From positions 65,655 to 129,654 of the forward strand of contig NZ_LGDE01000068.1 of NCBI RefSeq assembly GCF_001279725.1: a DNA stretch of 64,000 bases, read 5' to 3'. The notes under the pieces were generated by a model. The model was not told the origin of the DNA and did no database searches. It saw nothing but the letters and a program-made list of their open reading frames with translations. How positions within the stretch are numbered: position 1 is the stretch's first letter; each line of letters opens with the position of its first letter. The position numbers and the translations under genes are program-made. The DNA is from Streptomyces sp. WM4235 (GTDB taxonomy: Bacteria; Actinomycetota; Actinomycetes; Streptomycetales; Streptomycetaceae). Shown here one piece after another: positions 8,085-31,704 of the stretch.

Positions 8085-8141
8085 TTCCGTCATGCGGAAC
8101 AGCCTAATTTCGGCGTGAACTCGACGTCAACAGTTTGTTGA
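8085..8141 (-). promoter_or_regulatory. Catalase promoter with two different 15-bp palindromic operators
   Basis: On the minus strand the -35 box TTGACG (8125-8130) and -10 box TAGGCT (8101-8106) are 18 nt apart. The palindrome TCAACAAACTGTTGA (8127-8141) overlaps the -35. A second palindrome, TTCCGCATGACGGAA (8085-8099), sits just downstream of the -10, over the expected start of transcription. Both motifs recur at other purine-degradation genes in this window. Promoter boxes are by eye; the palindromes are exact. Confidence 0.7.
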
Positions 8142-8163
8142 AAGAAAGAGTGTGGAGAGGGAA

Positions 8164-8223
8164 TCCGGACGGTGCCGGCGCTTGGGCGCGACAGGACAGG
8201 TGTCAGCACCGGCACCATCCGGA
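8164..8223 (-). terminator. Long hairpin between glxR and catalase
   Basis: Arms 8164-8178 and 8209-8223 match at 14 of 15 positions (TCCGGACGGTGCCGG against its partner) with a 30-nt loop. A second small palindrome of C and G runs lies at 8232-8244. It is positioned to end the hyi-glxR transcript just before the catalase promoter, but has no T-run. Confidence 0.5.
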
Positions 8224-8264
8224 AACTCAGGTCCCCCTGGGGGGAAGGGCGTTCGGATCCGTGA

Positions 8265-9164
8265 TCAGATCTGCGCGCCGGAGAGGCGCTCGACCGCGCG
8301 GAGCAGGGCGGAGTGGTCCAGGCCACCGTCACCCTGGGCGCGCAGCGAGGCGACGAGCTGGGCGACGACCGCGCCGACCGGGAGGGCCGCACCCACATTG
8401 CGGGCGGCGTCGGTGACGATGCCCATGTCCTTGTGGTGCAGGTCGATCCGGAAGCCGGGCTTGAAGTCGCGGTTCAGGAAGTTGTCCTTCTTGCGCGTCA
8501 GCACCGTGGAGCCGGCCAGACCGCCGTTGAGAACGTCCAGGGCGGCGGTGAGGTTCACGCCGGACTTCTCCAGGAAGACGACGGCCTCGGCGCACGCCTG
8601 GATGTTCACCGCGACGATGAGCTGGTTGGCGGCCTTCACCGTCTGGCCGGAGCCGTGCGGGCCGCACAGGACGATGGTCTTGCCGAGGGCCTCCAGGACC
8701 GGCAGGGCCTCGTCGAAGTCGGCCTGCTCGCCACCCACCATGATCGACAGCACGGCCTCGATGGCGCCGGCCTCGCCGCCGGACACCGGGGCGTCGATGA
8801 CGCGGATGCCCTTCTCGGCGGCGTTCTTGGCGAGGTCGATCGAGGTCTGCGGGGTGATCGACGACATGTCGATGATCAGCGCGCCGGACTTCGCGTTCTC
8901 CAGGATGCCGTTCTCGCCGTAGGCGATGGCCTCGACCTGCGGGGAGGCGGGCACCATCGTGATGACGACGTCGGCGTCCTTGACGGCCTCGGCGATCGCG
9001 CCGGCCGCGGTGCCGCCGGCGGCGGCGAGGCGGTCCAGCTTGTCTTGCTCCAGGGTGAAGCCGGTGACCGAGTAGCCGGCCTTCAGGAGGTTCTCGGCCA
9101 TGGGGGAGCCCATGATGCCGAGACCGACCCAGGCGATCGACGGGAGGGCAGCGGGGTTGCTCAT
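8265..9164 (-). CDS. glxR: 2-hydroxy-3-oxopropionate (tartronate semialdehyde) reductase
   Basis: A 299-residue NAD(P)H-dependent beta-hydroxyacid dehydrogenase that reduces tartronate semialdehyde to D-glycerate in the glyoxylate-to-glycerate route. The N-terminal Rossmann motif is AWVGLGIMGSPMAENL. The substrate-binding signature is DAPVSGGEAGA and the catalytic Lys is in TVKAANQLIV. Other members of the superfamily (3-hydroxyisobutyrate dehydrogenase) share these motifs; the adjacent hydroxypyruvate isomerase gene decides the call. GAAGGA lies upstream of the ATG. It is the second gene of a hyi-glxR operon with a 75-nt gap. Confidence 0.9.
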   Translation of the reverse strand: MSNPAALPSIAWVGLGIMGSPMAENLLKAGYSVTGFTLEQDKLDRLAAAGGTAAGAIAEAVKDADVVITMVPASPQVEAIAYGENGILENAKSGALIIDMSSITPQTSIDLAKNAAEKGIRVIDAPVSGGEAGAIEAVLSIMVGGEQADFDEALPVLEALGKTIVLCGPHGSGQTVKAANQLIVAVNIQACAEAVVFLEKSGVNLTAALDVLNGGLAGSTVLTRKKDNFLNRDFKPGFRIDLHHKDMGIVTDAARNVGAALPVGAVVAQLVASLRAQGDGGLDHSALLRAVERLSGAQI

Positions 9165-9239
9165 GATGAGGGTCCTTCTCTTAATGCTTTGTACGAAAAG
9201 TGCGTGAGGTGCCTGGCTGATCGCCCGGACTTGGTCCGC

Positions 9240-10073
9240 CTACTTCGCGGCGCGGGCCTCGGCCGGCAGCCACGCGAAGGAGGCGGGGGCGTCGGCGGCC
9301 TTGTACTCCAGGCCTACGTAGCCCTCGTATCCGGCCTTCCTCAGCTGGTCGAGCAGCTCCTCCAGGGGCAGCTCGCCGGTGCCGGGGGCACCGCGTCCGG
9401 GCTTGTCCGCGATCTGGACGTGCCCGGTCTTGGCGGCGTACTTTTCGATGACCTCGGAGAGGTCCTCATCGTTCATCGCCAGGTGGTACAGGTCGAGGAG
9501 GAACTTGGCGTTGCCGAGACCGGTGGCCTCGTTCACCTTGTCCACCACCTCGATGCCGGCCGGCGCGCTCACCAGGGGGTAGAGCGGCGACTCGGGCTTG
9601 TTGAGGGTCTCGATCAGGAGGATCGCGCCCACGCGGTCCGCGGCCCGGGCGGCCACGACCAGGTTCTCCAGGGCGAGCTCGTCCTGGACGGCCGGGTCGA
9701 CGCCTTCCACGCGGTTTCCGTAGAGGGCGTTCAGCGCCTTGCAGCCGACCGAGGCCGCGAAGTCGGCGGCCACGTTGATGTTGGCGTTGAAGCGCTCCGA
9801 CTCCTCACCGGGGACCGAGACCGCGCCGCGGTCGGGACCCGGCAATTGGCCGGCGTAGAAGTTCAGGCCCACCAACCGGGTGCCGGCGTCCTCAAGAGCC
9901 TTCTTGAGGGCGTCGAGCTCCGCCTGGGCGGGAGTGGGGGTCTCGATCCAGGGCCACCACAGCTCGACCGCGGTGAAGCCCGCCGCGGCGGCGGCCGCGG
10001 GACGCTCCAGAAGCGGGAGTTCCGTGTAGAGGATCGAAAGGTTTACATCGAAGCGCTGGTCCGTGTATCCCAT
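9240..10073 (-). CDS. hyi: Hydroxypyruvate isomerase
   Basis: A 277-residue TIM-barrel sugar-phosphate-isomerase-fold enzyme interconverting hydroxypyruvate and tartronate semialdehyde. Start MGYTDQRFDVNLSILYTELP is the standard N-terminus. Metal-site Glu and His residues appear in LLIETLN, FLLDLYHLAM, HVQIAD and GYEGYVGLEYKA. An upstream in-frame ATG at 10154 would run through the operator and -10 region and is rejected. The ribosome site GGAAGGAG directly abuts and partly overlaps the TTCC-N7-GGAA operator, so repressor binding would also mask it in DNA terms. The partner glyoxylate carboligase gene is not in this window. Confidence 0.9.
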   Translation of the reverse strand: MGYTDQRFDVNLSILYTELPLLERPAAAAAAGFTAVELWWPWIETPTPAQAELDALKKALEDAGTRLVGLNFYAGQLPGPDRGAVSVPGEESERFNANINVAADFAASVGCKALNALYGNRVEGVDPAVQDELALENLVVAARAADRVGAILLIETLNKPESPLYPLVSAPAGIEVVDKVNEATGLGNAKFLLDLYHLAMNDEDLSEVIEKYAAKTGHVQIADKPGRGAPGTGELPLEELLDQLRKAGYEGYVGLEYKAADAPASFAWLPAEARAAK

Positions 10074-10089
10074 GAGGGGTGTGCGCTCC

Positions 10090-10154
10090 TTCCGTATTGC
10101 GGAAGTTGTTTTCTGCTTGATGGAAGACTGCATCGAGGTTCGCGTGGCTGTCAA
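10090..10154 (-). promoter_or_regulatory. hyi-glxR promoter and TTCC-N7-GGAA operator
   Basis: On the minus strand a consensus -35 TTGACA (10149-10154) is followed after 17-18 nt by a weak -10 (CAGTCT, around 10125-10130). The palindrome TTCCGCAATACGGAA occupies 10090-10104, about 20 nt downstream of the -10 and ending at the ribosome site. No TCAAC palindrome is present here, unlike the catalase, allB and malate synthase promoters. Confidence 0.65.
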
Positions 10155-10198
10155 GTGCGGACTGCCGAAACCTGCGGAGCGCGGGGTAGCTTGACCGC

Positions 10199-10450
10199 GT
10201 GCGATTGAGAGTGGAATTCACGACCGAGCCCTTCGATCTCGAAGAGGCCCCCGCCCATGCCGTGGCCGCTCGCGAGGTCATCCAGAAGGCGCGGCTCGAC
10301 GCGGTGGACGTCGGCCCCTTCGGCAACACCGCCGAGGGCGGGTCCGAAGAGGTGCTCACCGCCGTTTCCGCGCTCCTGCGCGATGCGCTGGAGGCCGGAG
10401 CCACGCGCGTCTCGCTCCAGGTGAACGTGATCCGGGAGGAGACCCCGTGA
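10199..10450 (+). CDS. Thiamine-binding-like small protein (MTH1187/YkoF-like, DUF77)
   Basis: An 83-residue protein beginning at GTG. The pattern VRLRVEFTTEPF, then VDVGPFGNTAEG, then DALEAGATRVSLQVNVI matches the MTH1187/YkoF superfamily of small ferredoxin-like-fold proteins, some of which bind thiamine or its pyrimidine. No enzyme activity is expected. There is no ribosome site; TAGCTT (10187-10192) lies six bases before the GTG, so the transcript is probably leaderless. It overlaps the next gene by 4 nt (GTGA), and the pair may act as a ligand sensor with a DNA-binding partner. The family call is from pattern recognition only. Confidence 0.65.
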   Translation: MRLRVEFTTEPFDLEEAPAHAVAAREVIQKARLDAVDVGPFGNTAEGGSEEVLTAVSALLRDALEAGATRVSLQVNVIREETP

Positions 10451-10830
10451 CCGAGCCCCGCGACCACCCGTTCGTCACCGCGGTCAAGCCGCTGGTCGAC
10501 GCCATCGGCGGCGAGCTGATGGATCCCTCCCTGGCGCAGCCCGACGACGTCGTGCTCACCTGGGAGGGTCAGGACCTGCTGGCCGTGCGCCTGCCCCAGC
10601 TGTCCGACTCGCTGGACCACATCCTGGCCGCGCTGGAGCGACGCCACGGCGTGCCCCTGGCCCGGCTCGACCGGAAGTCCAAGCAGGACGTGGTGCGCAT
10701 ATTGGAGGCGCGTGGCGCCTTCTCCGTGCGGCACGGGGTGGAAACGGTCGCGGGCGCCCTGGGGGTAAGCCGCTTCACGGTCTACAACTACCTGAACAGG
10801 GAAAACCCGAACAAGAACAGCCAGGAGTGA
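10447..10830 (+). CDS. Helix-turn-helix protein, YheO-type (HTH_22)
   Basis: A 127-residue protein. The C-terminal third (DRKSKQDVVRILEARGAF, then VETVAGALGVSRFTVYNYLN) matches the HTH_22 domain that ends YheO-like regulators. The N-terminal part (VKPLVDAIGGELMDPSL, VLTWEGQDLLAVRLPQ) looks like a shortened sensor domain; typical YheO proteins are about 220-240 residues. Its GTG overlaps the stop of the thiamine-binding-like gene. It lies between the hyi promoter and the urate operon and is a reasonable candidate for the unassigned regulator that binds the TCAAC palindrome next to uraD. That link is inference. Confidence 0.75.
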   Translation: MTEPRDHPFVTAVKPLVDAIGGELMDPSLAQPDDVVLTWEGQDLLAVRLPQLSDSLDHILAALERRHGVPLARLDRKSKQDVVRILEARGAFSVRHGVETVAGALGVSRFTVYNYLNRENPNKNSQE

Positions 10831-10853
10831 ACGGCGTCTGACGCACGGTGACG

Positions 10854-10887
10854 AGCCGCCGCCCGATTCACCCGGGCGGCGGCTTTT
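10854..10887 (+). terminator. Terminator after the HTH gene
   Basis: Perfect 12-bp inverted repeat AGCCGCCGCCCG (10854-10865) / CGGGCGGCGGCT (10873-10884), 7-nt loop, followed by TTTT. It separates the two-gene regulator unit from the urate operon. Confidence 0.85.
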
Positions 10888-10901
10888 GTGTACGCGAAGT
10901 T

Positions 10902-10942
10902 TCAACAAAGTGTTGACGCGGTGTTGTCGAGGGCGTTAGCTA
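10902..10942 (+). promoter_or_regulatory. uraD operon promoter with TCAACA-N3-TGTTGA palindrome
   Basis: The -35 TTGACG (10913-10918) and -10 TAGCTA (10937-10942) are 18 nt apart. The perfect palindrome TCAACAAAGTGTTGA (10902-10916) overlaps the -35, exactly as in the catalase promoter. No TTCC-N7-GGAA site is seen nearby. Confidence 0.7.
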
Positions 10943-10983
10943 TGCGCAGCCCGTCAAGCAACAACAGGCCACGGAGGCCTACC

Positions 10984-11490
10984 GTGACTTCGAGTCCGAC
11001 CCCGGGTCTCACCCGGTTCAACGCCTTGGACGACAGCGCGGCCACGGCCGAACTGCACGAGGTCTGCGCCAGCTCGGCGTGGGGGAGCAAGCTGCTCGCC
11101 CAGCGCCCCTTCACCACCGCCGACGCCCTGTTCTCGGCCAACGAGTCCGCCATGGCGGAGCTCACCGCCGAGGACCTGGCCGAGGCGATGGGGGGCCACG
11201 CGCCGATCGGCCGGCCGAAGCCGGGAGACCCGACCTCCGCCCGCGAGCAGCGTGGCATGGCCGGTGCCTCGGAGGACCTCAAGAACGAGCTCCTCGAACT
11301 GAACCTGGCGTACCAGGAGAAGTTCGGCCACGTCTTCCTCATCTGTGCCACCGGTGCGACCGGTGAGTTCATGCGGGACGCGGTCAGGATCCGGATCGAC
11401 AACTCGCCGGAAGCGGAGCGGGAAATCGCCCGCGGCGAGCTCGTCAAGATCAACCGGATCCGCCTGACCCGCCTCGCAGAAGGAGAGTGA
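10984..11490 (+). CDS. uraD: 2-oxo-4-hydroxy-4-carboxy-5-ureidoimidazoline (OHCU) decarboxylase
   Basis: A 168-residue all-helical enzyme that decarboxylates OHCU to S-allantoin, the third step from urate. The catalytic His and substrate-binding region is GGHAPIGRPKPGD, followed by the conserved SAREQRGM and the C-terminal KFGHVFLICATG. The GTG at 10984 is chosen because GGAGG stands seven bases upstream; an open frame from 10888 includes the promoter. It is the first gene of the uraD-uraH-uricase operon, with 7-nt and 5-nt gaps. Confidence 0.92.
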   Translation: MTSSPTPGLTRFNALDDSAATAELHEVCASSAWGSKLLAQRPFTTADALFSANESAMAELTAEDLAEAMGGHAPIGRPKPGDPTSAREQRGMAGASEDLKNELLELNLAYQEKFGHVFLICATGATGEFMRDAVRIRIDNSPEAEREIARGELVKINRIRLTRLAEGE

Positions 11491-11497
11491 GCACGCC

Positions 11498-11902
11498 ATG
11501 AGCACCGAGACCACCGCGTCGGTGTCCACGCACATCCTGGACACCAGCATCGGCAAGCCCGCCGAGGGCGTCGCCATCTCCCTGTCGGCCCGTACGGGTC
11601 CGGGCGGCGAGTGGGCGGCCCTGGGCGGCTCCGCCACCGATGCGGACGGGCGTTGCAAGGACCTGCCGGCCCTGCCGGAGGGCACCACACACGTGCGTCT
11701 CGACTTCGAGACCGAGACGTACTTCCTGAACAAGCACAGTTCGAAGAAGCAAGCCGAGGCGCAGCAGGACGCCCCCCGCGTAAGGGACAGCGGTGCGTTC
11801 TTCCCGGAGGTCACCATCACCTTTGCGGTGAACCCGGGCGAGCATTACCACGTACCGCTGCTGCTCAACCCGTTCGGCTACTCCGTTTACCGAGGGAGCT
11901 AG
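11498..11902 (+). CDS. uraH: 5-hydroxyisourate hydrolase (transthyretin-like)
   Basis: A 134-residue enzyme hydrolysing 5-hydroxyisourate, the product of urate oxidase, to OHCU. Hallmarks are STHILDTSIGKPA at the start, the HYHVPLLLNPFGYS region and the C-terminal YRGS tetrapeptide that defines the family. Compared with typical members of about 110-115 residues it carries extra charged sequence in the middle (LNKHSSKKQAEAQQ). It sits directly between uraD and the urate oxidase gene. Confidence 0.95.
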   Translation: MSTETTASVSTHILDTSIGKPAEGVAISLSARTGPGGEWAALGGSATDADGRCKDLPALPEGTTHVRLDFETETYFLNKHSSKKQAEAQQDAPRVRDSGAFFPEVTITFAVNPGEHYHVPLLLNPFGYSVYRGS

Positions 11903-11907
11903 CAGAC

Positions 11908-12831
11908 ATGCCCACGATTCTCGGCCAGAATCAGTACGGGAAAGCAGAGAACCGCGTAGTCAAGATCACGCGGGACGGCGACACCCACCACATCAAGGAC
12001 CTCAACGTCTCGGTCGCCCTCTCCGGCGACATGGACGACGTCCACTACTCCGGCTCGAACGCCAACGTGCTGCCGACGGACACCACCAAGAACACGGTGT
12101 ACGCGTTCGCCAAGGAGTACGGCATCGAGTCCGCCGAGCAGTTCGGCATCCACCTGGCGCGTTGGTTCGTCAACAGCCAGGAGCCGATCCAGCGCGCGCG
12201 CATCCGGATCGAGGAGTACTCCTGGTCCCGGATCGCCACCTCCGACGCCAACTCCAAGTTCATCGGGTCGGACGAGGTCAACCACTCGTTCGTCCGTGAG
12301 GGCATGGAGACCCGCGTCACCCAGATCACGTACGACGGCACCAACTGGGAGGTCATCTCCGGCCTCAAGGACCTCGTCGTCATGAACTCCACGAACTCCG
12401 AGTTCTGGGGTTACGTGAAGGACAAGTACACGACCCTGAAGGAGGCCTACGACCGCATCCTGGCCACCCAGGTGTCGGCTCGCTGGCGCTTCAACTGGTC
12501 GGACGACGAGCAGCGGATGCCCAACTGGGAGAAGTCCTACGCCGAGACCCGCAAGCACATGCTTCAGGCCTTCGCGGAGACCTACTCCCTGTCGCTCCAG
12601 CAGACCCTGTACCAGATGGGTTCGCGCATCATCAACCACCGTTCGGAGATCGACGAGGTCCGCTTCTCGCTCCCGAACAAGCACCACTTCCTCGTCGACC
12701 TGGAGCCCTTCGGCCTCAAGAACGACAACGAGGTCTACTTCGCCGCGGACCGCCCCTACGGTCTGATCGAGGCGACGGTCCTCCGCGACGGCGTTGACGC
12801 CCGTATCCCCGTGGACATGACCAACCTCTGA
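11908..12831 (+). CDS. pucL: Urate oxidase (uricase)
   Basis: A 307-residue cofactor-free oxidase that converts urate and oxygen to 5-hydroxyisourate and hydrogen peroxide. It is a stand-alone uricase, not fused to a decarboxylase. Recognisable segments are QNQYGKAENRVVKITRDG near the start, TDTTKNTVYAFAKEYG with the catalytic Thr-Lys region, and NKHHFLVDLEPFGLKN near the end. ATG at 11908 follows the uraH stop by 5 nt. The peroxide by-product gives a biochemical reason for the co-regulated catalase. Confidence 0.96.
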   Translation: MPTILGQNQYGKAENRVVKITRDGDTHHIKDLNVSVALSGDMDDVHYSGSNANVLPTDTTKNTVYAFAKEYGIESAEQFGIHLARWFVNSQEPIQRARIRIEEYSWSRIATSDANSKFIGSDEVNHSFVREGMETRVTQITYDGTNWEVISGLKDLVVMNSTNSEFWGYVKDKYTTLKEAYDRILATQVSARWRFNWSDDEQRMPNWEKSYAETRKHMLQAFAETYSLSLQQTLYQMGSRIINHRSEIDEVRFSLPNKHHFLVDLEPFGLKNDNEVYFAADRPYGLIEATVLRDGVDARIPVDMTNL

Positions 12832-12843
12832 CGAGCACGCGCG

Positions 12844-12870
12844 TCCCGGGGCTCCGCAGTGGCCCCGGGA
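12844..12870 (+). terminator. Hairpin after urate oxidase
   Basis: Inverted repeat TCCCGGGGC (12844-12852) / GCCCCGGGA (12862-12870), 9-nt loop, 12 nt after the uricase stop. It has no T-run. It may reduce rather than stop reading into the deaminase gene. Confidence 0.5.
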
Positions 12871-13021
12871 TCGGCGCGACACTCTTCAACTTCCTTAATC
12901 GGCACCCGGACGCAACACACGGGGCGGCAGTACTGTCAGCTGTCAAGGCCCCCGGCTCCGGCACTCAAATCCCCTGGGTTTTGCCGTGCCCGTACCGCCA
13001 CTGAAAGCACGAGGAAGTCCC

Positions 13022-14425
13022 ATGGCAGCATCGGCAGCCCAGGACAGCGCCGTCGAGCGCATCGTCATCGAGAACTGTGCCATCGCGACCGTTGACGCGA
13101 ACGACACCGAGTACGCCTCGGGTCACGTGGTCGTCGCCGGCAACAAGATCGAGTCGATCGGTGCGGGCAAAGCCCCCGAGAACCTCGCCAACGTGGTCCG
13201 CCGCATCGACGGCACGGGTCACCTCGTCACCCCGGGTCTGGTCAACACGCACCACCACTTCTACCAGTGGATCACCCGTGGTCTGGCCACCGACCACAAC
13301 CTCTTCAACTGGCTCGTCGCCCTGTACCCGACGTGGGCGCGCATCGACGAGCAGATGACGTACACGGCCGCCCAGGGCTCCCTGGCGATGATGGCCAAGG
13401 GCGGCGTCACCACCGCCATGGACCACCACTACGTCTTCCCCAAGGGCTCCGGCGACCTCTCCGGCTCGATCATCCGCGCCGCGTCCGAGATGGGCGTCCG
13501 CTTCACCCTGGCCCGCGGATCGATGGACCGCAGCGTCAAGGACGGCGGCCTGCCGCCGGACCACGCCGTCGAGACCCTCGAAGGCGCGCTCGCCGACACC
13601 GAGGCGACCGTCAAGAAGCACCACGACCACTCCTTCGACGCGATGACCCAGGTCGCCGTCGCCCCGTGCTCCCCCTTCTCGGTCTCCACCGAGCTGCTGA
13701 AGCAGGGCGCCGAGCTGGCCCGCCGGCTGAACGTGCGCCTGCACACGCACGGCTCGGAGACCGTCGAGGAGGAGCAGTTCTGCAAGGAACTGTTCGGCAT
13801 GGGCCCGACCGACTACTTCGAGTCGACCGGCTGGCTCGGCGAGGACGTGTGGATGGCGCACAGCGTCCACATGAACGACTCCGACATCGCCGCGTTCGCC
13901 CGCACCAAGACCGGTGTGGCGCACTGCCCGTCCTCCAACGCCCGTCTGGCCGCCGGCATCGCCCGCGTGCCCGACATGCTGGCCGCCGGCGTACCGGTCG
14001 GCCTCGGCGTGGACGGCACCGCCTCCAACGAGTCCGGTGAGCTGCACACCGAGCTGCGCAACGCGCTGCTCATCAACCGCCTGAACCCCGTCCACCGCGA
14101 GCGCGCACTGAACGCGCGCCAGGCCCTGCGCCTCGGTACGTACGGTGGCGCCCAGGTCCTCGGCCGCGCCGACAACATCGGTTCGCTGGAGGTGGGCAAG
14201 CTCGCCGACCTGGTGATGTGGAACGTCAGCACGCTGGCGCACTCCTCCATCGCCGACCCGGTCACCGCGCTCGTCTTCGGCGCGGCCGCACCGGTCACCC
14301 TCTCGCTGGTCAACGGCAAGCAGATCGTCGAGAACAACCGACTGCTCTTCGCCGACGAGGACGCGATCGCCGTGTCCACGCGGGAAGAGGCCCAGCGCCT
14401 CGCGCGGCTCTCCGCGCAGGCCTGA
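13022..14425 (+). CDS. 8-oxoguanine deaminase (amidohydrolase superfamily)
   Basis: A 467-residue metal-dependent deaminase of the ATZ/TRZ group. The metal motifs are NTHHHFYQWIT, LHTHGSETVEE, AHSVHMND and GLGVDGTASNES. This family is generally annotated as 8-oxoguanine deaminase, which makes urate and ammonia directly from 8-oxoguanine. Related enzymes act on isoguanine, guanine or triazines, so the substrate is inferred from similarity and from the uricase next to it. ATG at 13022 has GAGGAAG upstream. A 190-nt gap separates it from the uricase gene. Confidence 0.82.
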   Translation: MAASAAQDSAVERIVIENCAIATVDANDTEYASGHVVVAGNKIESIGAGKAPENLANVVRRIDGTGHLVTPGLVNTHHHFYQWITRGLATDHNLFNWLVALYPTWARIDEQMTYTAAQGSLAMMAKGGVTTAMDHHYVFPKGSGDLSGSIIRAASEMGVRFTLARGSMDRSVKDGGLPPDHAVETLEGALADTEATVKKHHDHSFDAMTQVAVAPCSPFSVSTELLKQGAELARRLNVRLHTHGSETVEEEQFCKELFGMGPTDYFESTGWLGEDVWMAHSVHMNDSDIAAFARTKTGVAHCPSSNARLAAGIARVPDMLAAGVPVGLGVDGTASNESGELHTELRNALLINRLNPVHRERALNARQALRLGTYGGAQVLGRADNIGSLEVGKLADLVMWNVSTLAHSSIADPVTALVFGAAAPVTLSLVNGKQIVENNRLLFADEDAIAVSTREEAQRLARLSAQA

Positions 14426-14466
14426 TCCCCCGGAGTCCGGTCGGGGGGGACGGCCCTCGACCGGCG

Positions 14467-14493
14467 GCCGCGGACCCGAGCGGGGTCCGCGGC
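14467..14493 (+). terminator. Hairpin after the deaminase
   Basis: An 11-bp perfect stem, GCCGCGGACCC (14467-14477) with 14483-14493, and a 5-nt loop, 41 nt past the deaminase stop. Confidence 0.6.
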
Positions 14494-16192: not shown

Positions 16193-16208
16193 GGCCGGAC
16201 CCCCGGCC

Positions 16209-16351: not shown

Positions 16352-17407
16352 TCAGGCCGCGCGCGTCGGCTCCGTCCAGATGTCCGGGAGCACCGTGCGC
16401 ACGCGTCGCCCCTCCTGGTCCAACTCCTGCGCCTCCGACTTGCGCACGTGGAGCGCCACCGCCGAGTCGGTGACCCGCATCGCCGGCAACCGGCGCGAGA
16501 GGTCCGAGGTGTAGTGGGCCAGCTCCGCGATCGTGCGCAGCCGCGCACTGATCATGAAGTTCCAGGGCCCGCTGACGGACATGCAGGTCCGGGTCTCGCG
16601 TAACCCGATCGCCGCCGCCGCGCAGTCGGCCACCTCGTGCTCGGGCACCTCCGCCCACAAGGTCGCCGACACCGGCCAGCCCGAGACCCCCGAGGCCATC
16701 GCGCAGCTGTAGCGCAGGCCCTGCCCCGCCTCCAGCCGGCCCAGCCGGCGACGCACCGTGGACTCGCTCATGCCGGTCTCCCGCGCCAGCGAGGCCACGC
16801 TGCGTCGCGCGTCCGAGGCCAGCGCCAGCACCAACGGCCGGTCCTCCTCGGTCATGTTCGACGGCGCCGGGCCGGCGAGGGCCGCCGACGACGTGGAGCG
16901 GCGGGTCCGCCCGGTCAGCTGATCGATCTGGAGGGGGGACAGTTGATCCAGGCGCCACCGGTCGGGGGCGCTGTGCACCGCCGTCACCATCGACGACCGG
17001 GTCGCGCCCACCCCGGGGATCCGCTGGACGCGGAACGACAGGTAGCGGTACAGCGTGTGCAGGTTCGGGACGGCCACGAACGCCAACAGGTCACGGGCGC
17101 CCGTGGTGTGCTGCACGCCGAGCGTGTGCGGGTCCCCGACCAGCGCCGCGCCGACCGCCGGGGCGGTGCCGGCGGCGCAGGTCACCTCCACCCAGGCCAT
17201 GCAGGGCGACTGGTTGCCCGTACGCAGCCCCAGCCCCGATATCCAGGCCTCACCGGCCCCCGTCATGCGCTCCCAGCGGCGGGCCAGCGTGTCGGGGCGG
17301 GCGCCGAGCACCGGCCCCAACCGCTCCCAGCTCGCCCGGGGCGCGAGCTGGAGTGCGTGGACGAGCGCCCGGTCGGTGTCGTCCACGGCGGAAATGGCCG
17401 CGTGCAT
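16352..17407 (-). CDS. AsnC/Lrp-family regulator with duplicated domains
   Basis: A 351-residue regulator made of two AsnC-like halves. The second HTH is clear (DARRSVASLARETGMSESTV), and the first is weaker (VDDTDRALVHALQLAPRAS). This double arrangement is common in Streptomyces. Start MHAAISAVDD has GGGGAAGG immediately upstream. Codon 269 is TTA (16601-16603 on the plus strand as TAA), the rare leucine codon read by the bldA tRNA, so translation may depend on developmental stage. It is divergent from the ATPase gene with 128 bp between. Ligand and targets are unknown; amino acids such as lysine are typical for the family. Confidence 0.85.
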   Translation of the reverse strand: MHAAISAVDDTDRALVHALQLAPRASWERLGPVLGARPDTLARRWERMTGAGEAWISGLGLRTGNQSPCMAWVEVTCAAGTAPAVGAALVGDPHTLGVQHTTGARDLLAFVAVPNLHTLYRYLSFRVQRIPGVGATRSSMVTAVHSAPDRWRLDQLSPLQIDQLTGRTRRSTSSAALAGPAPSNMTEEDRPLVLALASDARRSVASLARETGMSESTVRRRLGRLEAGQGLRYSCAMASGVSGWPVSATLWAEVPEHEVADCAAAAIGLRETRTCMSVSGPWNFMISARLRTIAELAHYTSDLSRRLPAMRVTDSAVALHVRKSEAQELDQEGRRVRTVLPDIWTEPTRAA

Positions 17408-17535
17408 ACCTTCCCCCTGGTGGTTCTCCCGGTCGCGGGTCGGAAGACCGGACTTTCCGCAGATCATCTCTCTTTGTGCACCGAACCGATGAATCCGACG
17501 GTGGTGCGCGAGTACAGGACGTCGCGGGAGGACGC

Positions 17536-22425: not shown

Positions 22426-24045
22426 TCAGCCGGTGAGCTGGTCGTACGCGGGGAGGGTGAGGAAGTCCGCGTAATCGGCGTCGAGGGAGACCTGGAGCAG
22501 GAGGTCGTGGGCCTGCTGCCACTTGCCGGAGGCGAAGGCCTCCTCGCCGACCTCGGCGCGGATGGCGGCCAGTTCCTCGGTCGCGATCTTGCGGGTCAGG
22601 TCGGCCGTGGCCGTCTCGCCGTTCTCGAAGACGACCCCGGCGTTGATCCACTGCCAGATCTGCGAGCGGGAGATCTCGGCGGTGGCCGCGTCCTCCATCA
22701 GGCCGAAGATGCCGACGGCGCCCAGGCCGCGCAGCCACGCCTCGATGTAACGGATGCCGACCTGGACGGCGTTGCGCAGGCCCTCGTAGGTCGGCTTGGC
22801 GTCCAGCGAGTCGATGGCGATCAGCTCGCCCGCGGCCACCGAGACGTCCTCGCGCAGCCGGTCCTTCTGGTTGGGCTTGTCGCCGAGCACCGCGTCGAAG
22901 GAGGCCATCGCGATCGGGACCAGGTCGGGGTGGGCGACCCAGGAGCCGTCGAAGCCGTCGCCGGCCTCGCGGTCCTTGTCGGCCTTGACCTTCTCGAACG
23001 CGACCTTGTTGACCTCGGCGTCCTTGCGGGACGGGATGAAGGCCGCCATGCCGCCGATGGCGTGCGCGCCGCGCTTGTGGCAGGTCCTGACCAGCAGTTC
23101 GGTGTACGCCCGCATGAAGGGGGCGGTCATCGTCACCGCGTTGCGGTCCGGCAGGACGAACTTCTCGCCGCCGTCACGGAAGTTCTTCACGATGGAGAAG
23201 AGGTAGTCCCAACGGCCCGCGTTGAGGCCGGCCGCGTGGTCCTTGAGCTCGAAGAGGATCTCTTCCATCTCGTAGGCCGCGGTGATCGTCTCGATCAGGA
23301 CGGTCGCGCGGACGGTGCCCTGCGGGATCCCGACGTAGTCCTGGGCGAAGACGAAGATGTCGTTCCAGAGGCGGGCCTCAAGGTGCGACTCCGTCTTCGG
23401 CAGGTAGAAGTAGGGGCCCTTGCCGAGGTCGATGAGGCGCTGGGCGTTGTGGAAGAAGTACAGGCCGAAGTCGACGAGCGAACCGGAGGCCGGGCCGCCC
23501 TCGAAGCGCAGGTGGCGCTCCTGGAGGTGCCAGCCGCGCGGCCGCATCACGACGGTGGCGAGTTCGTCGGCGGACTTCAGCGCGTACGCCTTGCCGGTGC
23601 GGGGGTCGGTGAAGTCGATGCGACGCTCGTAGGCGTCGATCAGGTTCAGCTGGCCGAGGACGACGTTCTCCCAGGTGGGAGCCGAGGCGTCCTCGAAGTC
23701 GGCGAGCCAGACCTTGGCGCCCGAGTTCAGGGCGTTGATGGTCATCTTGCGGTCCGTCGGACCGGTGATCTCCACGCGGCGGTCGTTCAGCGCGGCCGGG
23801 GCCGGCGCGACCTTCCAGTCTCCCTCGCGGACCTGTGCGGTGTCCGGGAGGAAGTCGAGGGTGGAGGTCCGGGCGATCTCGGCGCGCCGCTCGCCGCGTC
23901 GGGCGAGGAGCTCCGCGCGGCGTGGGGCGAACCGCCGGTGGAGCTCGGCCACGAAGGCGAGGGCCGCTTCGGTGAGGACCTCGTCCTGCCGGGGCAGGGG
24001 CTCGGCGTCGACGATGGCCAGCGGGGACGGCGCTGGTGCGGACAT
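22426..24045 (-). CDS. aceB: Malate synthase A
   Basis: A 539-residue enzyme condensing glyoxylate and acetyl-CoA to malate. The length and the malate synthase A signature (KDHAAGLNAGRWDYLFSIVK) are standard. Other conserved parts are LADFEDASAPTWEN, VMRPRGWHL and GGMAAFIP. The ATG at 24045 has GAAGGAG eight bases upstream. No isocitrate lyase gene is adjacent, and the promoter carries purine-regulon palindromes. Its main role here is therefore probably assimilation of glyoxylate from allantoin rather than the acetate glyoxylate bypass. Confidence 0.96.
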   Translation of the reverse strand: MSAPAPSPLAIVDAEPLPRQDEVLTEAALAFVAELHRRFAPRRAELLARRGERRAEIARTSTLDFLPDTAQVREGDWKVAPAPAALNDRRVEITGPTDRKMTINALNSGAKVWLADFEDASAPTWENVVLGQLNLIDAYERRIDFTDPRTGKAYALKSADELATVVMRPRGWHLQERHLRFEGGPASGSLVDFGLYFFHNAQRLIDLGKGPYFYLPKTESHLEARLWNDIFVFAQDYVGIPQGTVRATVLIETITAAYEMEEILFELKDHAAGLNAGRWDYLFSIVKNFRDGGEKFVLPDRNAVTMTAPFMRAYTELLVRTCHKRGAHAIGGMAAFIPSRKDAEVNKVAFEKVKADKDREAGDGFDGSWVAHPDLVPIAMASFDAVLGDKPNQKDRLREDVSVAAGELIAIDSLDAKPTYEGLRNAVQVGIRYIEAWLRGLGAVGIFGLMEDAATAEISRSQIWQWINAGVVFENGETATADLTRKIATEELAAIRAEVGEEAFASGKWQQAHDLLLQVSLDADYADFLTLPAYDQLTG

Positions 24046-24187
24046 ATCTGTCACTCCTTCAGCGGCGGTGCCTGGCGGCCGCGGGGGAATGCTCGCGCGA
24101 GACGGCACGCAGTGCCGTCGGGTGTGGAGAGTTCCGGGATACGGTCGCGGGCGCCGTCTGTGGGTTCAGGGCGCTTCTGACCAGTGG

Positions 24188-24227
24188 ATAGTAATTTCCT
24201 CATGGTGGAAGTTCAATGGTTTGTTGA
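24188..24227 (-). promoter_or_regulatory. Malate synthase promoter with both purine-regulon palindromes
   Basis: On the minus strand, -35 TTGAAC (24211-24216), a 17-nt spacer and -10 TACTAT (24188-24193). The spacer holds TTCCACCATGAGGAA (24196-24210). The imperfect palindrome TCAACAAACCATTGA (24213-24227) overlaps the -35. The two palindromes are separated by only 2 nt, so the two binding proteins would touch or compete. The 5' leader is about 135 nt. Confidence 0.75.
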
Positions 24228-25137: not shown

Positions 25138-25151
25138 GTCGGCGTCTCCTT

Positions 25152-25217: not shown

Positions 25218-25225
25218 AGGTTGGC

Positions 25226-26713: not shown

Positions 26714-26734
26714 GACGCCGCCGGCGGCCCCGCC

Positions 26735-27364
26735 CTACGGGGTGCGGATCAGCCGGCGGGTGGCCGCCGCGGCGACCGCCGCCGTGCGGGAGTCGACGCC
26801 GAGCTTCGCGTAGACGTGCACCAGGTGGGACTTGACCGTGGCCTGGCTGAGGAAGAGCCGCTTCGAGATCTGCTGGTTCGACAATCCGTCCGCGACCAGC
26901 TGGAGCACCTCCAGCTCCCGCTTCGTCAGCGCCTCCGCCGGCATCCGCATCCGGTCCATCAGCCGCAACGCCACCGCCGGGGCCAGCGCCGACTGGCCGG
27001 CCGCCGCGGTGCGGACCGCCGCCGCCAGCTCCTCCGGCGGGGCGTCCTTGAGCAGGTAGCCCGAGGCGCCCGCCTCCACGGCGGCCAGGATGTCCGCGTC
27101 CGTGTCGTACGTGGTCAGCACCAGCACCCGGGGCGCGTCCGGCCGGGCCGTGATCAGGGCCGTGGCCTGCGAACCGTGCATGCCGGGCCCGAACTGGAGG
27201 TCCATCAGGACCACGTCCACCCCCGCCGAGGCGGCCAGCTCCACCGCCCGCTCGGCGGTGGCGGCCTCCGCGACGACCGCGAAGTCCGCCTCGGTGTCCA
27301 GCACCGCGCGCAGCCCCGCGCGGACCACCGGGTGGTCGTCGGCGAGCAGCAGCCGGATGGTCAT
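26735..27364 (-). CDS. NarL/LuxR-family response regulator
   Basis: A 209-residue regulator with a receiver domain (LLADDHPVVRAGL acidic pocket, phospho-Asp in DVVLMDLQFGPGMHG, Lys in YLLKDAPPEE). A LuxR HTH follows (LTKRELEVLQLVADGLSNQQ, SQATVKSHLVHVYAKLGV). The start overlaps the kinase stop by 4 nt (ATGA). Together with the kinase it probably controls the divergent ABC exporter. Confidence 0.93.
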   Translation of the reverse strand: MTIRLLLADDHPVVRAGLRAVLDTEADFAVVAEAATAERAVELAASAGVDVVLMDLQFGPGMHGSQATALITARPDAPRVLVLTTYDTDADILAAVEAGASGYLLKDAPPEELAAAVRTAAAGQSALAPAVALRLMDRMRMPAEALTKRELEVLQLVADGLSNQQISKRLFLSQATVKSHLVHVYAKLGVDSRTAAVAAAATRRLIRTP

Positions 27365-28545
27365 GACAGGGCCTCCGCGGGCAACGGCAGGGTGACGGCC
27401 ACGGCGGTGCCCTGGCCCGGGGCGGACTCGACGGTGAACAGCCCGCCCAGCGTCTCGGCCCGCGAGCGCATCGCCGGCAGACCGAAGCCGCCCTCGCCGG
27501 ACGGCGCCGACGAGGGGTCGAAGCCCAGACCGTCGTCCACGACGTCCAGGGTGACCGAGGTGTCCATGAAGGTCAGGGTGATCTCCGCGCGGCCCGCGCG
27601 GGCGTGCCGGACCACATTGGCCAGCGCCGACTGCGCGATCCGCAGCAGGGCCACCTCGTACGGGGTGGGCAGGATCCGGGGGGCACCACTCAGCGAGAAC
27701 CGCACGCGCGGCCCGGGAGCCGCGGTGCAGAGGCGTTCCAGCGCCGCGGCGAGGGAGCCGTGCTCCAGGTCGGGAGGCGTCAGGGCGCGGACGAAACGGC
27801 GCGCCTCGGCGAGGTTCTCCTGCGCGGCCTCCCGGGCCCGGCCGATGTGCTCCAGCGCGGGCGCGCCGACGGGGAGCGAGCGCTCGGCGGCCCGCAGCAG
27901 CAGCTGGATCGAGCTCAGGCCCTGGGCGAGGGTGTCGTGGATCTCCCGGGCGAGGCGTTCGCGTTCGGCGAGGATCCCCGCGCCCCGCTCGGCGGCGGCC
28001 AGCTCGGCCCGGGTGGTGATGAGTTCCTCGATCAGCTCCCGGCGGCGTTCGCTCTCCCGGTACAGGGCCTGGTAGCCGAGGACCGTGGCCACGGCGACGG
28101 CCCCGCCGAGCAGCGGGCCGAGGAAGGCCCCCGGCGTGGGGGTGCTGCTGTGGGCGAGGAACCCGCCGATCGCCGCGCAGGCCGTGACGGCGACGGCCGC
28201 GACCCCCCAGCGCAGCCGCAGCAGGTGCAGTTCGAGGAAGTACAGCGGGAAGGCGATCCACAGCCCGTCCGGGGAGACCACGAGCAGCGCGGCCCACGCC
28301 GCGCCGAGCAGGGCCAGCCACACCGCTCCGGCGCGCGGCGAGCGGTCCACCACGGGAGCCGCGGCGCCCGCCACGTACACGGCGGCGAACAGCGCGCACG
28401 CGGCGACCGCCCACCCGGCGCGGGGCACGTCGTCGGCGACGGCGCGTCCCGCGGCCAGCGCGAGCAGCCCGAAGAGCAGCGCGTGCAGGCACAGCCGCAG
28501 GACGCGGGAGACGGGGGTCAGGGGGCGGGATTCCGGAGCAACCAT
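27361..28545 (-). CDS. Sensor histidine kinase, NarL-partner type (HisKA_3)
   Basis: A 394-residue membrane kinase. About five hydrophobic helices fill the first 180 residues. A coiled linker and the dimerisation motif REIHDTLAQGLSSIQ with the phosphorylated His follow. The ATPase part contains ALANVVRHA, DDGLGFDP and GGFGLPAMRSRAE. ATG at 28545 is used; the extra upstream frame lacks kinase-like sequence. There is little extracellular loop, so it may sense a membrane-active compound, in line with the exporter next door. Confidence 0.92.
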   Translation of the reverse strand: MVAPESRPLTPVSRVLRLCLHALLFGLLALAAGRAVADDVPRAGWAVAACALFAAVYVAGAAAPVVDRSPRAGAVWLALLGAAWAALLVVSPDGLWIAFPLYFLELHLLRLRWGVAAVAVTACAAIGGFLAHSSTPTPGAFLGPLLGGAVAVATVLGYQALYRESERRRELIEELITTRAELAAAERGAGILAERERLAREIHDTLAQGLSSIQLLLRAAERSLPVGAPALEHIGRAREAAQENLAEARRFVRALTPPDLEHGSLAAALERLCTAAPGPRVRFSLSGAPRILPTPYEVALLRIAQSALANVVRHARAGRAEITLTFMDTSVTLDVVDDGLGFDPSSAPSGEGGFGLPAMRSRAETLGGLFTVESAPGQGTAVAVTLPLPAEALS

Positions 28546-28679
28546 GGCCCGACCAGCGTAAGTGGGGGCCCGCCGGCCCCGGTCAACCAAAAGATTGATG
28601 TACGGGGCGTCCCTTCGACACGAGGATCCCTACCGTGGCGCGATGCCGTGTGTCCACGGTGAACACCAGGGTGGGGGAC

Positions 28680-29765
28680 ATGTTCGTCGCATGGAGAGAT
28701 CTACGGTTCGCCAAGGGCCGCTTCGCCCTCATGGGCTCGGTCGTCGTGCTCATCACCCTGCTGGTCGGCCTGTTGTCCGGACTCACCTCGGGCCTGGCCC
28801 GGGAGAACATCTCGGCGATCACGGGACTGCCCGCCTCACACCTGTCGTTCGCGGCGCCCGCCGGGGACCAGGACGTGTCCTTCACCAACTCCCGGATACC
28901 CGAGAAGGCCTGGCTGGCCTGGCGCGAGCGACCTGGCGTCACATCGGCGGAGCCGATCGGCATCCGCACCACCAACGCGGTCTCGGGTGAGCGCACCGCG
29001 GCCGTCTCGGTCTTCGGCGTCGATCCGGCGGGCCGCCTCGCACCCCGCGGATCAGGACTCACCCAGGGGCAGGTGGTCCTGACCGAGAAGGCCGCCGAGG
29101 AACTCGGCGGGCTCGCGGCCGGCGGGAAGCTCAGGATCGGCGCGCTCGAACTGTCCGTCGCGGCCGTCTCCGGCACCGCCTCCTTCAGCCACACCCCGGT
29201 CGTGTGGATGGACCTGAACGACTGGCAGCGCGTCGGCAACCCCGGCACCTCCATCGACACCGTCGCCACCGTCATCGCCCTGGACGCGTCCGGGGCGGAC
29301 CTCGCCGCCGGCGACGCGAGCGCGGAGACCCGGACCGAGACCGTCGACGACGCGCTGTCCGCGATCGGCTCCTACACCTCCGAGAACGGCTCGCTCCAGC
29401 TGATGCGCGGCTTCCTCTTCGCGATCTCCGCCCTGGTCATAGGCGCCTTCTTCACGGTGTGGACGATCCAGCGCGGCGGTGACGTCGCCGTGCTGAAGGC
29501 ACTGGGTGCCTCCACCGTGTACCTGCTGCGGGACGCCCTCGGTCAGGCGGTGGTGATGCTCGCCGTCGGGACCGGACTCGGTACGGCCCTCGCCGCCGTC
29601 CTCGGAGCGCTGATCAGCGGCGGCGACGTGCCCTTCGTGCTCGACGCGGCCACCGTGCTGGTCCCCGCCGTCGTCATGATCGCGCTCGGCGCGCTCGGAG
29701 CCGCCCTGTCCATCCGGCGGATCACCGCCGTAGACCCGCTGACCGCACTCGGGAGCGCCCGATGA
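28680..29765 (+). CDS. ABC transporter permease, FtsX/DevC type
   Basis: A 361-residue membrane protein with an N-terminal helix (MGSVVVLITLLVGLLSG), a large extracytoplasmic domain and three C-terminal helices ending in IRRITAVDPLTALG, the usual FtsX-domain layout. MacB- or DevC-type exporters move lipids, peptides or antibiotics. The ATG at 28680 is only a few bases after a G-rich run, so a GTG farther upstream (28650) is possible. It is divergent from the two-component genes by about 134 bp. Confidence 0.88.
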   Translation: MFVAWRDLRFAKGRFALMGSVVVLITLLVGLLSGLTSGLARENISAITGLPASHLSFAAPAGDQDVSFTNSRIPEKAWLAWRERPGVTSAEPIGIRTTNAVSGERTAAVSVFGVDPAGRLAPRGSGLTQGQVVLTEKAAEELGGLAAGGKLRIGALELSVAAVSGTASFSHTPVVWMDLNDWQRVGNPGTSIDTVATVIALDASGADLAAGDASAETRTETVDDALSAIGSYTSENGSLQLMRGFLFAISALVIGAFFTVWTIQRGGDVAVLKALGASTVYLLRDALGQAVVMLAVGTGLGTALAAVLGALISGGDVPFVLDAATVLVPAVVMIALGALGAALSIRRITAVDPLTALGSAR

Positions 29766-30445
29766 CCCTGCTCGTCCACGACGTCACGCTCACCTACCCG
29801 GACGGCGACGGCCGGCTCACCGCCCTCGACGCGGTCGCCCTGGAGGCGCCGGCGGGCACCCTGACCGCCGTCATCGGGCCTTCGGGCTCCGGCAAGTCCA
29901 GCCTGCTCGCGGTCGCCGCCACCCTGGTCACCCCGGACGCGGGCCGGGTCGTCGTCGCCGGCCGGGACACGGCCCGGCTCAGCGCCGCGCAGAAGTCCGC
30001 GCTGCGCCGCGAGGAGATCGGCATCGTCTTCCAGCAGCCCAACCTGCTCGCCTCGCTCACCGCCGCCGAGCAGCTCCAGGTGATGGCCCACCTGTCGGGG
30101 CGGCCGGCCAAGCGGCTGCGCCGGCGGGCCCTGGACCTGCTGGACGCGGTGGGCATGGCCGACAAGGCCGACAAGCGCCCGCACCAGCTCTCGGGCGGGC
30201 AGCGCCAGCGCGTCAACATCGCCCGCGCCCTGATGAACGAGCCCGCCGTGCTGCTGGTGGACGAGCCGACCAGCGCCCTGGATCACGAGCGGGGGGCGGC
30301 CGTACTGGACCTCCTGGTCACCCTCACCCGCGAGCGGTCCACCGCCACGGTGCTGGTCACCCACGACCACGCCCACCTGGAGCGCGTGGACCGCACGATG
30401 ACGATGACGGACGGCCGCCTCACGGAGGCGGCCCCGGCCCGCTGA
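29762..30445 (+). CDS. ABC transporter ATP-binding protein, LolD/DevA type
   Basis: A 227-residue ATPase. Walker A is [10 protein letters not shown], the Q-loop is IVFQQPNLLASLT, the signature is LSGGQRQRVN and Walker B is [11 protein letters not shown]. The length and sequence fit the LolD/MacB/DevA class that works with FtsX-type permeases. It overlaps the permease by 4 nt (ATGA). Confidence 0.93.
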   Translation: MTLLVHDVTLTYPDGDGRLTALDAVALEAPAGTLTAVIGPSGSGKSSLLAVAATLVTPDAGRVVVAGRDTARLSAAQKSALRREEIGIVFQQPNLLASLTAAEQLQVMAHLSGRPAKRLRRRALDLLDAVGMADKADKRPHQLSGGQRQRVNIARALMNEPAVLLVDEPTSALDHERGAAVLDLLVTLTRERSTATVLVTHDHAHLERVDRTMTMTDGRLTEAAPAR

Positions 30446-30514
30446 CGTGCGAAGGCCCCGGCCGCGGCGCGACAGCGCCGGCCCCGCGGTGTACGAGGCG
30501 CCGCCGCACACGTA

Positions 30515-30562
30515 CGAAGGCCCCGGCCCGCCCCCTTCGAGAAGGGCGGTCCGGGGCCTTCG
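30515..30562. terminator. Bidirectional terminator between ABC exporter and allR
   Basis: CGAAGGCCCCGG (30515-30526) pairs with CCGGGGCCTTCG (30551-30562), with further pairing of CCGCCC/GGGCGG inside. A second copy of GCGAAGGCCCCGGCC stands just after the ATPase stop (30449-30463). Confidence 0.8.
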
Positions 30563-30573
30563 CGTACGGGTCC

Positions 30574-31377
30574 CTACGCGGGATTCTGGCTCTGCAGGGC
30601 CACCGACAGCTCGGCGGCGATCCCCTGGAGGATCGGCACGATCGAGTCCGTCAGCGCCTCGGTCACCCGGCCCGCGGGGCCCGAGATGGAGATCGCGGCG
30701 GCGGTCGGCGAGTTCGGCACCGACACGGCCAGGCAGCGGACTCCTATCTCCTGCTCGTTGTCGTCGACCGCGTAGCCCACCTTGCGGACCTGCTCCAGGG
30801 CGTCCAGGAAGCCCTCGGGCGTGGTGATGGTCTTCTCGGTCGCGGCCGGCATCCCGGTGCGCGCCAGCAGCGCGCGCACCTCGTCCGCGGGGGTGTACGC
30901 GAGCAGCGCCTTGCCCACGCCCGTGGAGTGCGGCAGCACCCGGCGGCCCACCTCCGTGAACATGCGCATGGAGTGCTTGGACGGCACCTGGGCGACGTAG
31001 ACGATCTCGTCCCCGTCGAGCAGGGCCATGTTCGCGGTCTCGCCGGTCTCCTCGACGAGCCGTGCGAGGTAGGGACGGGCCCACGTGCCCAGGAGGCGGG
31101 AGGCGGATTCGCCGAGACGGATCAGCCGGGGGCCGAGGGCGTACCGTCGGTTTGGCTGCTGCCGGACGTAACCGCACGCCACGAGGGTGCGCATGAGGCG
31201 ATGGATGGTGGGCAGCGGGAGACCACTGGCGGCGGAGAGCTCGCTGAGGCCGACCTCGCCCCCGGCATCGGCCATGCGTTCGAGCAGATCGAAGGCGCGC
31301 TCAAGGGACTGGACGCCACCCCCGGCGGCGGTGGGCTTGGCGGAAGCGTCGGTGGTGCTGGCGCTGGACGTCGGCAC
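30574..31377 (-). CDS. allR: IclR-family regulator, probable allantoin repressor AllR
   Basis: A 267-residue IclR protein. The winged helix is VQSLERAFDLLERMADAGGE then LSELSAASGLPLPTIHRLM, and the effector domain contains TGVGKALLAYTP and NEQEIGVRCLAV. IclR-type AllR represses allantoin genes in S. coelicolor; the position next to allantoinase and allantoicase supports the same role. GTG at 31377 has AAAGGA about nine bases upstream; a TTG at 31407 is an alternative. The likely effector in this family is an allantoin-pathway intermediate (glyoxylate or allantoin-related), not visible in the sequence. The promoter holds a TTCC-N7-GGAA site, so it probably represses itself. Confidence 0.88.
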   Translation of the reverse strand: MPTSSASTTDASAKPTAAGGGVQSLERAFDLLERMADAGGEVGLSELSAASGLPLPTIHRLMRTLVACGYVRQQPNRRYALGPRLIRLGESASRLLGTWARPYLARLVEETGETANMALLDGDEIVYVAQVPSKHSMRMFTEVGRRVLPHSTGVGKALLAYTPADEVRALLARTGMPAATEKTITTPEGFLDALEQVRKVGYAVDDNEQEIGVRCLAVSVPNSPTAAAISISGPAGRVTEALTDSIVPILQGIAAELSVALQSQNPA

Positions 31378-31555
31378 GGGCGCGGTCCTTTCGGTGCTGG
31401 CAGGCAAGGAATCAGCCTACCGGTCGGTCGGCGTCGGCCCTAGAGCCGGGGCACTGCCGTCCCCGCCGGTCAGAGGGGGTTTGTCCTGGTGGTGGACGTC
31501 CTCGGAAGTCAACCGCGCGACTCCCGATGGCGGTAGCTACATTCTGGATAGTGAA

Positions 31556-31585
31556 ATCTTAATTCCATCCTGTGGAAACATCCAA
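31556..31585 (-). promoter_or_regulatory. allR promoter with operator in the spacer
   Basis: On the minus strand, -35 TTGGAT (31580-31585) and -10 TAAGAT (31556-31561) lie 18 nt apart. The 15-bp TTCCACAGGATGGAA (31563-31577) fills the spacer, as in the malate synthase promoter. The leader to the GTG would be about 170 nt. Confidence 0.65.
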
Positions 31586-31623
31586 TTGTGCCGTGCGTGG
31601 CTGGGTGGTCCGTCCGGGCGCTC

Positions 31624-31686
31624 TTGACTGGCCCCGGATCGGGGTGAAGACTCCGTCAACAGAACGTTGAATTTCGCTCTGTGGAA
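31624..31686 (+). promoter_or_regulatory. allB promoter region with adjacent palindromes
   Basis: TTGACT (31624-31629), 17 nt, AAGACT (31647-31652) is one possible promoter. TCAACAGAACGTTGA (31656-31670) is followed after 1 nt by a one-mismatch TTCC-N7-GGAA site (31672-31686, TTTC in the left arm). The order matches malate synthase. If the right TTGA arm is the -35, as at catalase and uraD, no good -10 is found, so the start of transcription is uncertain. Confidence 0.55.
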
Positions 31687-31704
31687 GTAGATGGGGAGGT
31701 TCCG

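Follow-up and report, generated by a model that had tools for sequence, protein, structure and literature searches.

AllR of Streptomyces coelicolor, a regulator of the IclR family, reportedly controls the allantoin genes and has allB and aceB as targets. It presumably reads a TTCC-type motif, such as is named in an earlier note on the DNA considered here. Regulators of the YheO/DauR type combine a PAS domain with the helix-turn-helix (HTH) domain HTH_22. We know of no transcription role for the DUF77 sensor family in print. In Deinococcus radiodurans urate is sensed by HucR, a MarR protein (PMC5487221, in excerpt). Here we analysed a window of 64,000 nucleotides (the whole stretch of DNA, 72% GC) from contig NZ_LGDE01000068.1 of Streptomyces sp. 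WM4235, in which a palindrome, TCAACA-N3-TGTTGA, is located at promoters of urate and allantoin genes. As far as the searches made here reach, no regulator is known to be assigned to this motif, in line with the earlier note. The likely regulator, missed in the earlier note, is encoded 71 bases upstream of the palindrome at uraD by a two-gene module (10199-10830), a DUF77 gene and an HTH_22 gene. We consider it probable that the palindrome is the operator of this module, that the DUF77 protein is the sensor and that the module most likely represses urate and allantoin genes until released by a metabolite. The sequence evidence for the pair of operator and module is strong. The elements concerned are the following (G, C and L labels are our own handles for genomes, contigs and loci).

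10199..10450, + strand: DUF77/UPF0045 (PF01910, thiamine-binding-like) protein, putative sensor subunit, 83 amino acids; profile match, predicted fold, fusion elsewhere
10447..10830, + strand: HTH_22 (PF13309) protein, putative DNA-binding subunit, 127 amino acids; PF13309 E 2.4e-20
10902..10916, + strand: candidate uraD operator palindrome, serving uraD-uraH-uox; right arm within the -35-like hexamer 10913-10918
10937..10942, + strand: -10-like hexamer TAGCTA of the uraD promoter, read from the sequence; TTAGCTAT or a near form recurs in relatives
10984..11490, + strand: uraD (OHCU decarboxylase); start likely after GGAGG, the open reading frame (ORF) start at 10888 being too early
11498..11902, + strand: uraH (hydroxyisourate hydrolase), assigned only by position between uraD and uox and synteny with SCO6209-SCO6211
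11899..12831, + strand: uox, urate oxidase; TIGR03383 E 1.9e-105 on the longer ORF 11611-12831
8127..8141, - strand: candidate catalase operator palindrome; right arm within the -35-like hexamer 8125-8130
6588..8093, - strand: catalase; catalase HPII model E 9e-143, under the cut-off of that equivalog
24213..24227, - strand: imperfect palindrome of malate synthase, on the -35-like hexamer; the TTCC..GGAA element follows in the promoter spacer
22426..24108, - strand: malate synthase aceB; TIGR01344 E 1e-253
31656..31670, + strand: allB palindrome, one arm base altered, near the expected transcription start
31681..33048, + strand: allB, allantoinase; TIGR03178 E 2.8e-188, start codon probably further in

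A conserved palindrome at urate and allantoin promoters

A re-scan of the sequence recovered the two perfect copies of TCAACA-N3-TGTTGA which the earlier note had placed at catalase (TCAACAGTTTGTTGA) and uraD (TCAACAAAGTGTTGA). Its two altered copies were found as well. The allB site, TCAACAGAACGTTGA, is perfect for the looser form TCAAC-N5-GTTGA and has one mismatch to the strict form; that of malate synthase has one and two mismatches, respectively. At uraD, catalase and malate synthase the right arm is situated within a -35-like hexamer, as had been proposed. As read, the promoters are TTGACG-N18-TAGCTA (uraD), TTGACG-N18-TAGGCT (catalase) and TTGAAC-N17-TACTAT (malate synthase); a promoter consensus scan of the window did not flag the uraD promoter. 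The malate synthase promoter (24188-24227), with the palindrome over the -35-like hexamer and TTCC..GGAA in the spacer, is little changed in most of 30 Streptomyces. The allB palindrome is located just downstream of a conserved TTGAC...GAAGACT element. The absence of the palindrome from hyi was borne out, the best match starting in 10121-10230 having 6 mismatches. The -10-like box of catalase (window 8091-8106) is about 8 bases from the ATG, and the catalase mRNA may therefore be leaderless.

Base composition predicts about 2e-4 perfect 12-base sites for a sequence of 64 kb, and two were seen. In 20 Streptomyces genomes the strict palindrome occurred at 63 places, compared to 2 for the backward pattern. 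The looser TCAAC-N5-GTTGA with up to two mismatches gave 35 matches in the window versus 10.4 ± 2.9 in shuffles, an unsorted set that was not used as evidence. In the own genome it occurred at 9 places, as did its backward control, and is therefore uninformative genome-wide; three of these places are in the window, one is at urease, one at cydA and four are in or near unrelated genes.

At orthologous promoters of other Streptomyces, where the earlier note had taken lack of conservation as grounds for refuting the motif, the palindrome is kept. At uraD, all 30 Streptomyces loci that were fetched, among them that of the own genome, carry it without mismatch; in a 31st genome from the same search (G009) there is one mismatch, and the HTH_22 gene is frameshifted. 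Of 20 cluster regions fetched, 15 hold the catalase promoter and all of these carry a perfect site, not counting one further G005 site outside its cluster region. At most one mismatch was present in 27 of 29 allB promoters (the 30th genome is without a close allB) and at most two in 23 of 30 aceB promoters, with a perfect site in G226. We conclude that the palindrome is real, far beyond chance and conserved.

In some genomes urease joins the set of targets, which the earlier note had missed. Directly upstream of the urease genes of the own genome (L007:1501-1515; G000:C446:63947-63961) there is a perfect palindrome identical to that of uraD. Among 29 fetched Streptomyces urease promoters, one of them (G022) from a more distant paralogue, nine had a perfect site and one a site with one mismatch. 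Here the palindrome is positioned just upstream of a -10-like element.

The DUF77 and HTH_22 gene pair

The two module genes overlap by 4 bases. The HTH_22 protein matches PF13309 with 72.8 bits, above the curated cut-off of 29.6, and helices are predicted at residues 76-88, 97-105 and 109-118. The upstream protein matches PF01910 with E 5.8e-5 and 23.4 bits, just under the gathering score of 24.9. Its predicted model has the ferredoxin-like DUF77 fold and matched the DUF77 structures 1yqh, 2eky, 1vk8 and 1lxn (Foldseek E down to 1.3e-6; for the 14 best chains probability 1.00 and TM score by query length 0.64-0.74). In fused relatives PF01910 and PF13309 are both assigned in precomputed annotation. 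In G071, a genome of another family, DUF77 and HTH_22 share one reading frame (L335:7151-7720), which is followed by a perfect palindrome and then by uox. Relatives of this fusion protein, again with both Pfam domains assigned, include those from Phycicoccus, Pedococcus and Knoellia. Because of the fusion and the overlapping genes, the upstream protein is the likely sensor.

In all 20 Streptomyces cluster regions the HTH_22 gene immediately precedes uraD, even where hyi and catalase have moved away. All 48 aligned Streptomycetaceae orthologues contain GVSRFT[VI]YNYLN, and of the 120 database relatives listed 116 have RFTVYNYL. Neither module gene is of MarR type, their matches being to HTH_22 and DUF77, and no MarR gene was found among the scanned genes from catalase to pbuX (all but uraH). 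In G226 and G284 (L331:2636-2650, L334:2850-2864) a palindrome with one mismatch is located between the DUF77 gene and hyi; this could be autoregulation there.

In public records the two proteins are mostly named 'helix-turn-helix domain-containing protein' or 'YqgV (UPF0045/DUF77)'. In S. coelicolor SCO6208 is listed as a putative transposase (PMC3897704, in excerpt). Judged by its number beside SCO6209-6211, it is the likely counterpart in this species. S. coelicolor hpxQ-hpxT-hpxO (SCO6209-6211) are the uraD-uraH-uox genes; they respond in a study of HbpS-SenS-SenR, which, as far as the excerpt goes, predicts a different site (PMC4991794).

Palindrome and module occur together

Co-occurrence was examined in a class-wide sample of 196 genomes. 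HTH_22 matched over its full length in 17 genomes, all of them Streptomyces, and strongly but only in part in G071; all 18 module genomes carry a perfect site. From a longer list of uraD loci in this sample 30 were fetched, of which 13 are not from Streptomyces. None of these 13 loci, all from module-less genomes, contained a site within one mismatch over their whole length of about 3.5 kb; the best match had 4-5 mismatches just upstream of uraD and 2-4 in the whole locus. Twelve of the 13 genomes are without an HTH_22 match, and G077 has only a weak partial match on another contig.

Next to this, loci were collected from named genomes with the G071 fusion protein as query, i.e. blind to the motif. 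The search yielded 80 loci from 13 named genera plus a metagenome-assembled genome (MAG): 35 from Streptomyces and 45 from Amycolatopsis, Prauserella, Kutzneria, Nocardia, Nocardioides, Kribbella, Saccharopolyspora, Halosaccharopolyspora, Actinopolyspora, Tsukamurella, Modestobacter, Leekyejoonella and a Nocardioidaceae MAG. Every one of the 80 holds a perfect palindrome (102 places). As a control, 59 palindromes with permuted arms were each found in at most one of the 80 loci. The palindrome is located within 600 bp downstream of the HTH_22 match in 75 loci, and in two from Tsukamurella it is between the module and a divergent uraD. The module is fused in 22 loci (Amycolatopsis, Prauserella, Kutzneria, one Nocardioides, one Actinopolyspora) and consists of separate genes in 58, which by a rough estimate mostly overlap. 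In 80 of 81 loci the right arm is followed by a C (TTGAC). Because the taxa are related, counts across genera are not independent events.

Within the family, 30 genomes were picked, 16 with an intact module (two of them Streptomyces) and 14 without. All 16, chosen for carrying the module, have a perfect site beside uraD; 13 of the 14 others have no perfect site, aside from a match in MarR coding sequence in four. Fisher's test for site versus module gave 1.2e-7, uncorrected for kinship. In G009 the HTH_22 gene is split in two frames, possibly by a sequencing error, and in G313 it is a degenerate remnant. At uraD of these two genomes the left arm has decayed (1 and 2 mismatches, respectively) and the -35 arm is intact. 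Overall, the site was present where the module is intact and absent where it is missing (18/18 versus 0/13, and 80/80), with G269 and G313 as exceptions.

Proposed mode of action

The sites are surrounded by catalase, glxR (2-hydroxy-3-oxopropionate reductase), hyi, the DUF77/thiamine-binding-like gene, the HTH_22 gene, uraD, uraH and uox, followed by genes for 8-oxoguanine deaminase, xanthine permease, an Lrp/AsnC protein, malate synthase, an IclR-type protein, allantoinase and allantoicase. That the targets belong to a single pathway, catalase being there for the peroxide of urate oxidase, supports the proposed operator-module pair. The HTH_22 protein would bind the palindrome as a dimer with one recognition helix per arm. 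The arm centres are 9 bp apart, about one helical turn, a spacing suited to a dimer that contacts a single face of the helix. The DUF77/thiamine-binding-like protein would be the sensor subunit. The complex would most likely act as a repressor of uraD-uraH-uox, catalase, allB and malate synthase, through occupation of the -35 region or the start site. Repression by occlusion is the simplest reading: three of the promoters, those of uraD, catalase and aceB, have the right arm within a -35-like hexamer, and the allB site is at the expected start. Urate or a urate product would release the complex from DNA and is the candidate natural inducer. As a member of the regulon, catalase would remove the peroxide that urate oxidase forms.

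Several observations weigh against this proposal. Because module and uraD operon are linked, the same co-occurrence would arise with any uraD regulator, and the uraD loci without module which served as controls are from more distant taxa. Of the 14 module-deficient family genomes, just G009 and G313 were observed to have kept uraD; missing sites may therefore in part be missing targets. G269, in which no module was detected (an assembly of 250 contigs), has a perfect site at a DUF6986 gene and one that is unexplained. G313, with its degenerate HTH_22 gene, has an allB site with one mismatch. At allB of the 16 module genomes four sites are within one mismatch, six have three mismatches and six genomes have none. 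RFTVYNYL is present in the HTH of 81 of 81 loci in part by selection, since FTVYNYLN was one of six search patterns. Lastly, in the own genome a perfect and longer palindrome, ATTCAACAATCTGTTGAAT (L008:1501-1515; G000:C457:73855-73869), is located between a cyclophilin-like gene and cydA; similar sites are at the same place in G003, G006, G015 and G029, and these perfect sites do not fit the urate pathway. Linkage to uraD and the exceptions G269 and G313 keep the case short of proof. Perfect palindromes precede a DUF6986 gene (HpcH/HpaI aldolase-like) in three further genera of the Streptomycetaceae (L325:9989, L326:1500, L327:9637, L416:4245); the product possibly is a glyoxylate-related enzyme.

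Alternative regulators

Two other regulators are encoded in the cluster.

30574..31407, - strand: allR-type IclR regulator; IclR_C and HTH_IclR matches, thought to read another motif
16352-17467: double-domain Lrp/AsnC regulator, adjoining xanthine permease

AllR might bind the palindrome in addition to its own motif. Its gene adjoins allB, its targets allB and aceB overlap with those of the palindrome, and in G226 allR is beside a perfect site (L330). Yet four genomes which keep allR (64-84% identity) and have no intact HTH_22 gene (G009, G463, G232, G246) are without the palindrome at allB, uraD has the palindrome but by eye, as the earlier note had it, no TTCC element, and aceB has a separate TTCC..GGAA element beside the palindrome. 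This makes AllR a very improbable owner of the site. The claim that two independent regulators with overlapping targets are at work is well supported by these data: the palindrome tracks the HTH_22 gene, not allR. Even less is to be said for the Lrp/AsnC protein, which we regard as a most improbable candidate. It is located in the cluster, and 15-bp sites with a 3-bp centre are typical of Lrp proteins; however, the palindrome-bearing cluster regions of 20 relatives, to which this search was confined, contained no match of at least 35% identity.

A regulator encoded elsewhere, e.g. of MarR or TetR type, could own the site while the HTH_22 module merely travels with the urate operon. The binding of the module to the palindrome is what we infer, G269 keeps two sites without a detected module, and the cydA-type sites lie outside the pathway. 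Such a regulator would, however, have to be retained together with the module in 13 named genera, and the palindrome adjoins the module in spite of other gene orders, uox being first in G071 and uraD divergent in Tsukamurella. We consider this unlikely. The module may also be the regulator and yet act as an activator beside the -35 region. At uraD and catalase the palindrome is centred at about -40, assuming a start 7 bases after the -10-like box, and class II activators use this position as well. The right arm itself is a good -35 hexamer, the allB site is at the expected transcription start and the urease site just upstream of a -10-like element; repression fits these positions better, and activation appears somewhat unlikely.

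Implications

If the proposed pairing is correct, a regulator, an operator and a small regulon can be assigned to the degradation of urate by Streptomyces and numerous other actinobacteria, and two proteins with merely generic public names would gain a function. Uricase and catalase are of practical use. The module would be a non-MarR sensor of the urate pathway, usable as a biosensor, and the split and fused forms would be a natural pair for asking how a sensor domain signals to an HTH. The DUF77 sensor family would gain a role in transcription, with an operator that is letter-perfect across at least 13 genera. It is even possible, and is put forward tentatively, that this is a widespread actinobacterial urate switch of new build, composed of a DUF77 metabolite sensor, separate or fused, and an HTH_22 DNA-binding part.

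Comparison with known systems

AllR and the palindrome overlap in the targets allB and aceB, but the presence of allR does not predict a palindrome at allB. With regulators of the YheO/DauR type the module shares the PF13309 domain. The same genomes also encode longer proteins whose alignment is limited to the HTH_22 end; these matches cover residues of about 54-120 at 35-48% identity, whereas the module protein has 127 amino acids and DUF77 as partner or fused domain. At the urease promoter GlnR acts on ureA in S. coelicolor and S. venezuelae (PMC10704036, PMC3087709, both in excerpt). Of the 29 ureA promoters fetched, 27 contain a GlnR-like box, GTTAAC-N6-GAAAC, with no more than one mismatch (a raw count, chance level not estimated). 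In the ten palindrome-bearing ureA promoters this box itself has one mismatch, and the palindrome comes in addition, 65-148 bp downstream of it. HucR resembles the module in that it adjoins uricase, has one site in the uricase promoter and controls the urate pathway, as described in the excerpted text (PMC5487221). This comparison covers gene position and function; HucR is a MarR protein, whereas here an HTH_22 DNA-binding part is joined with a putative DUF77 sensor. The DUF77/UPF0045 proteins 1yqh, 1vk8 and 1lxn have the same fold as the upstream protein of the module. Their chains of about 90-110 residues leave no room for an HTH; in the actinobacterial loci, in contrast, DUF77 is fused or coupled to one.

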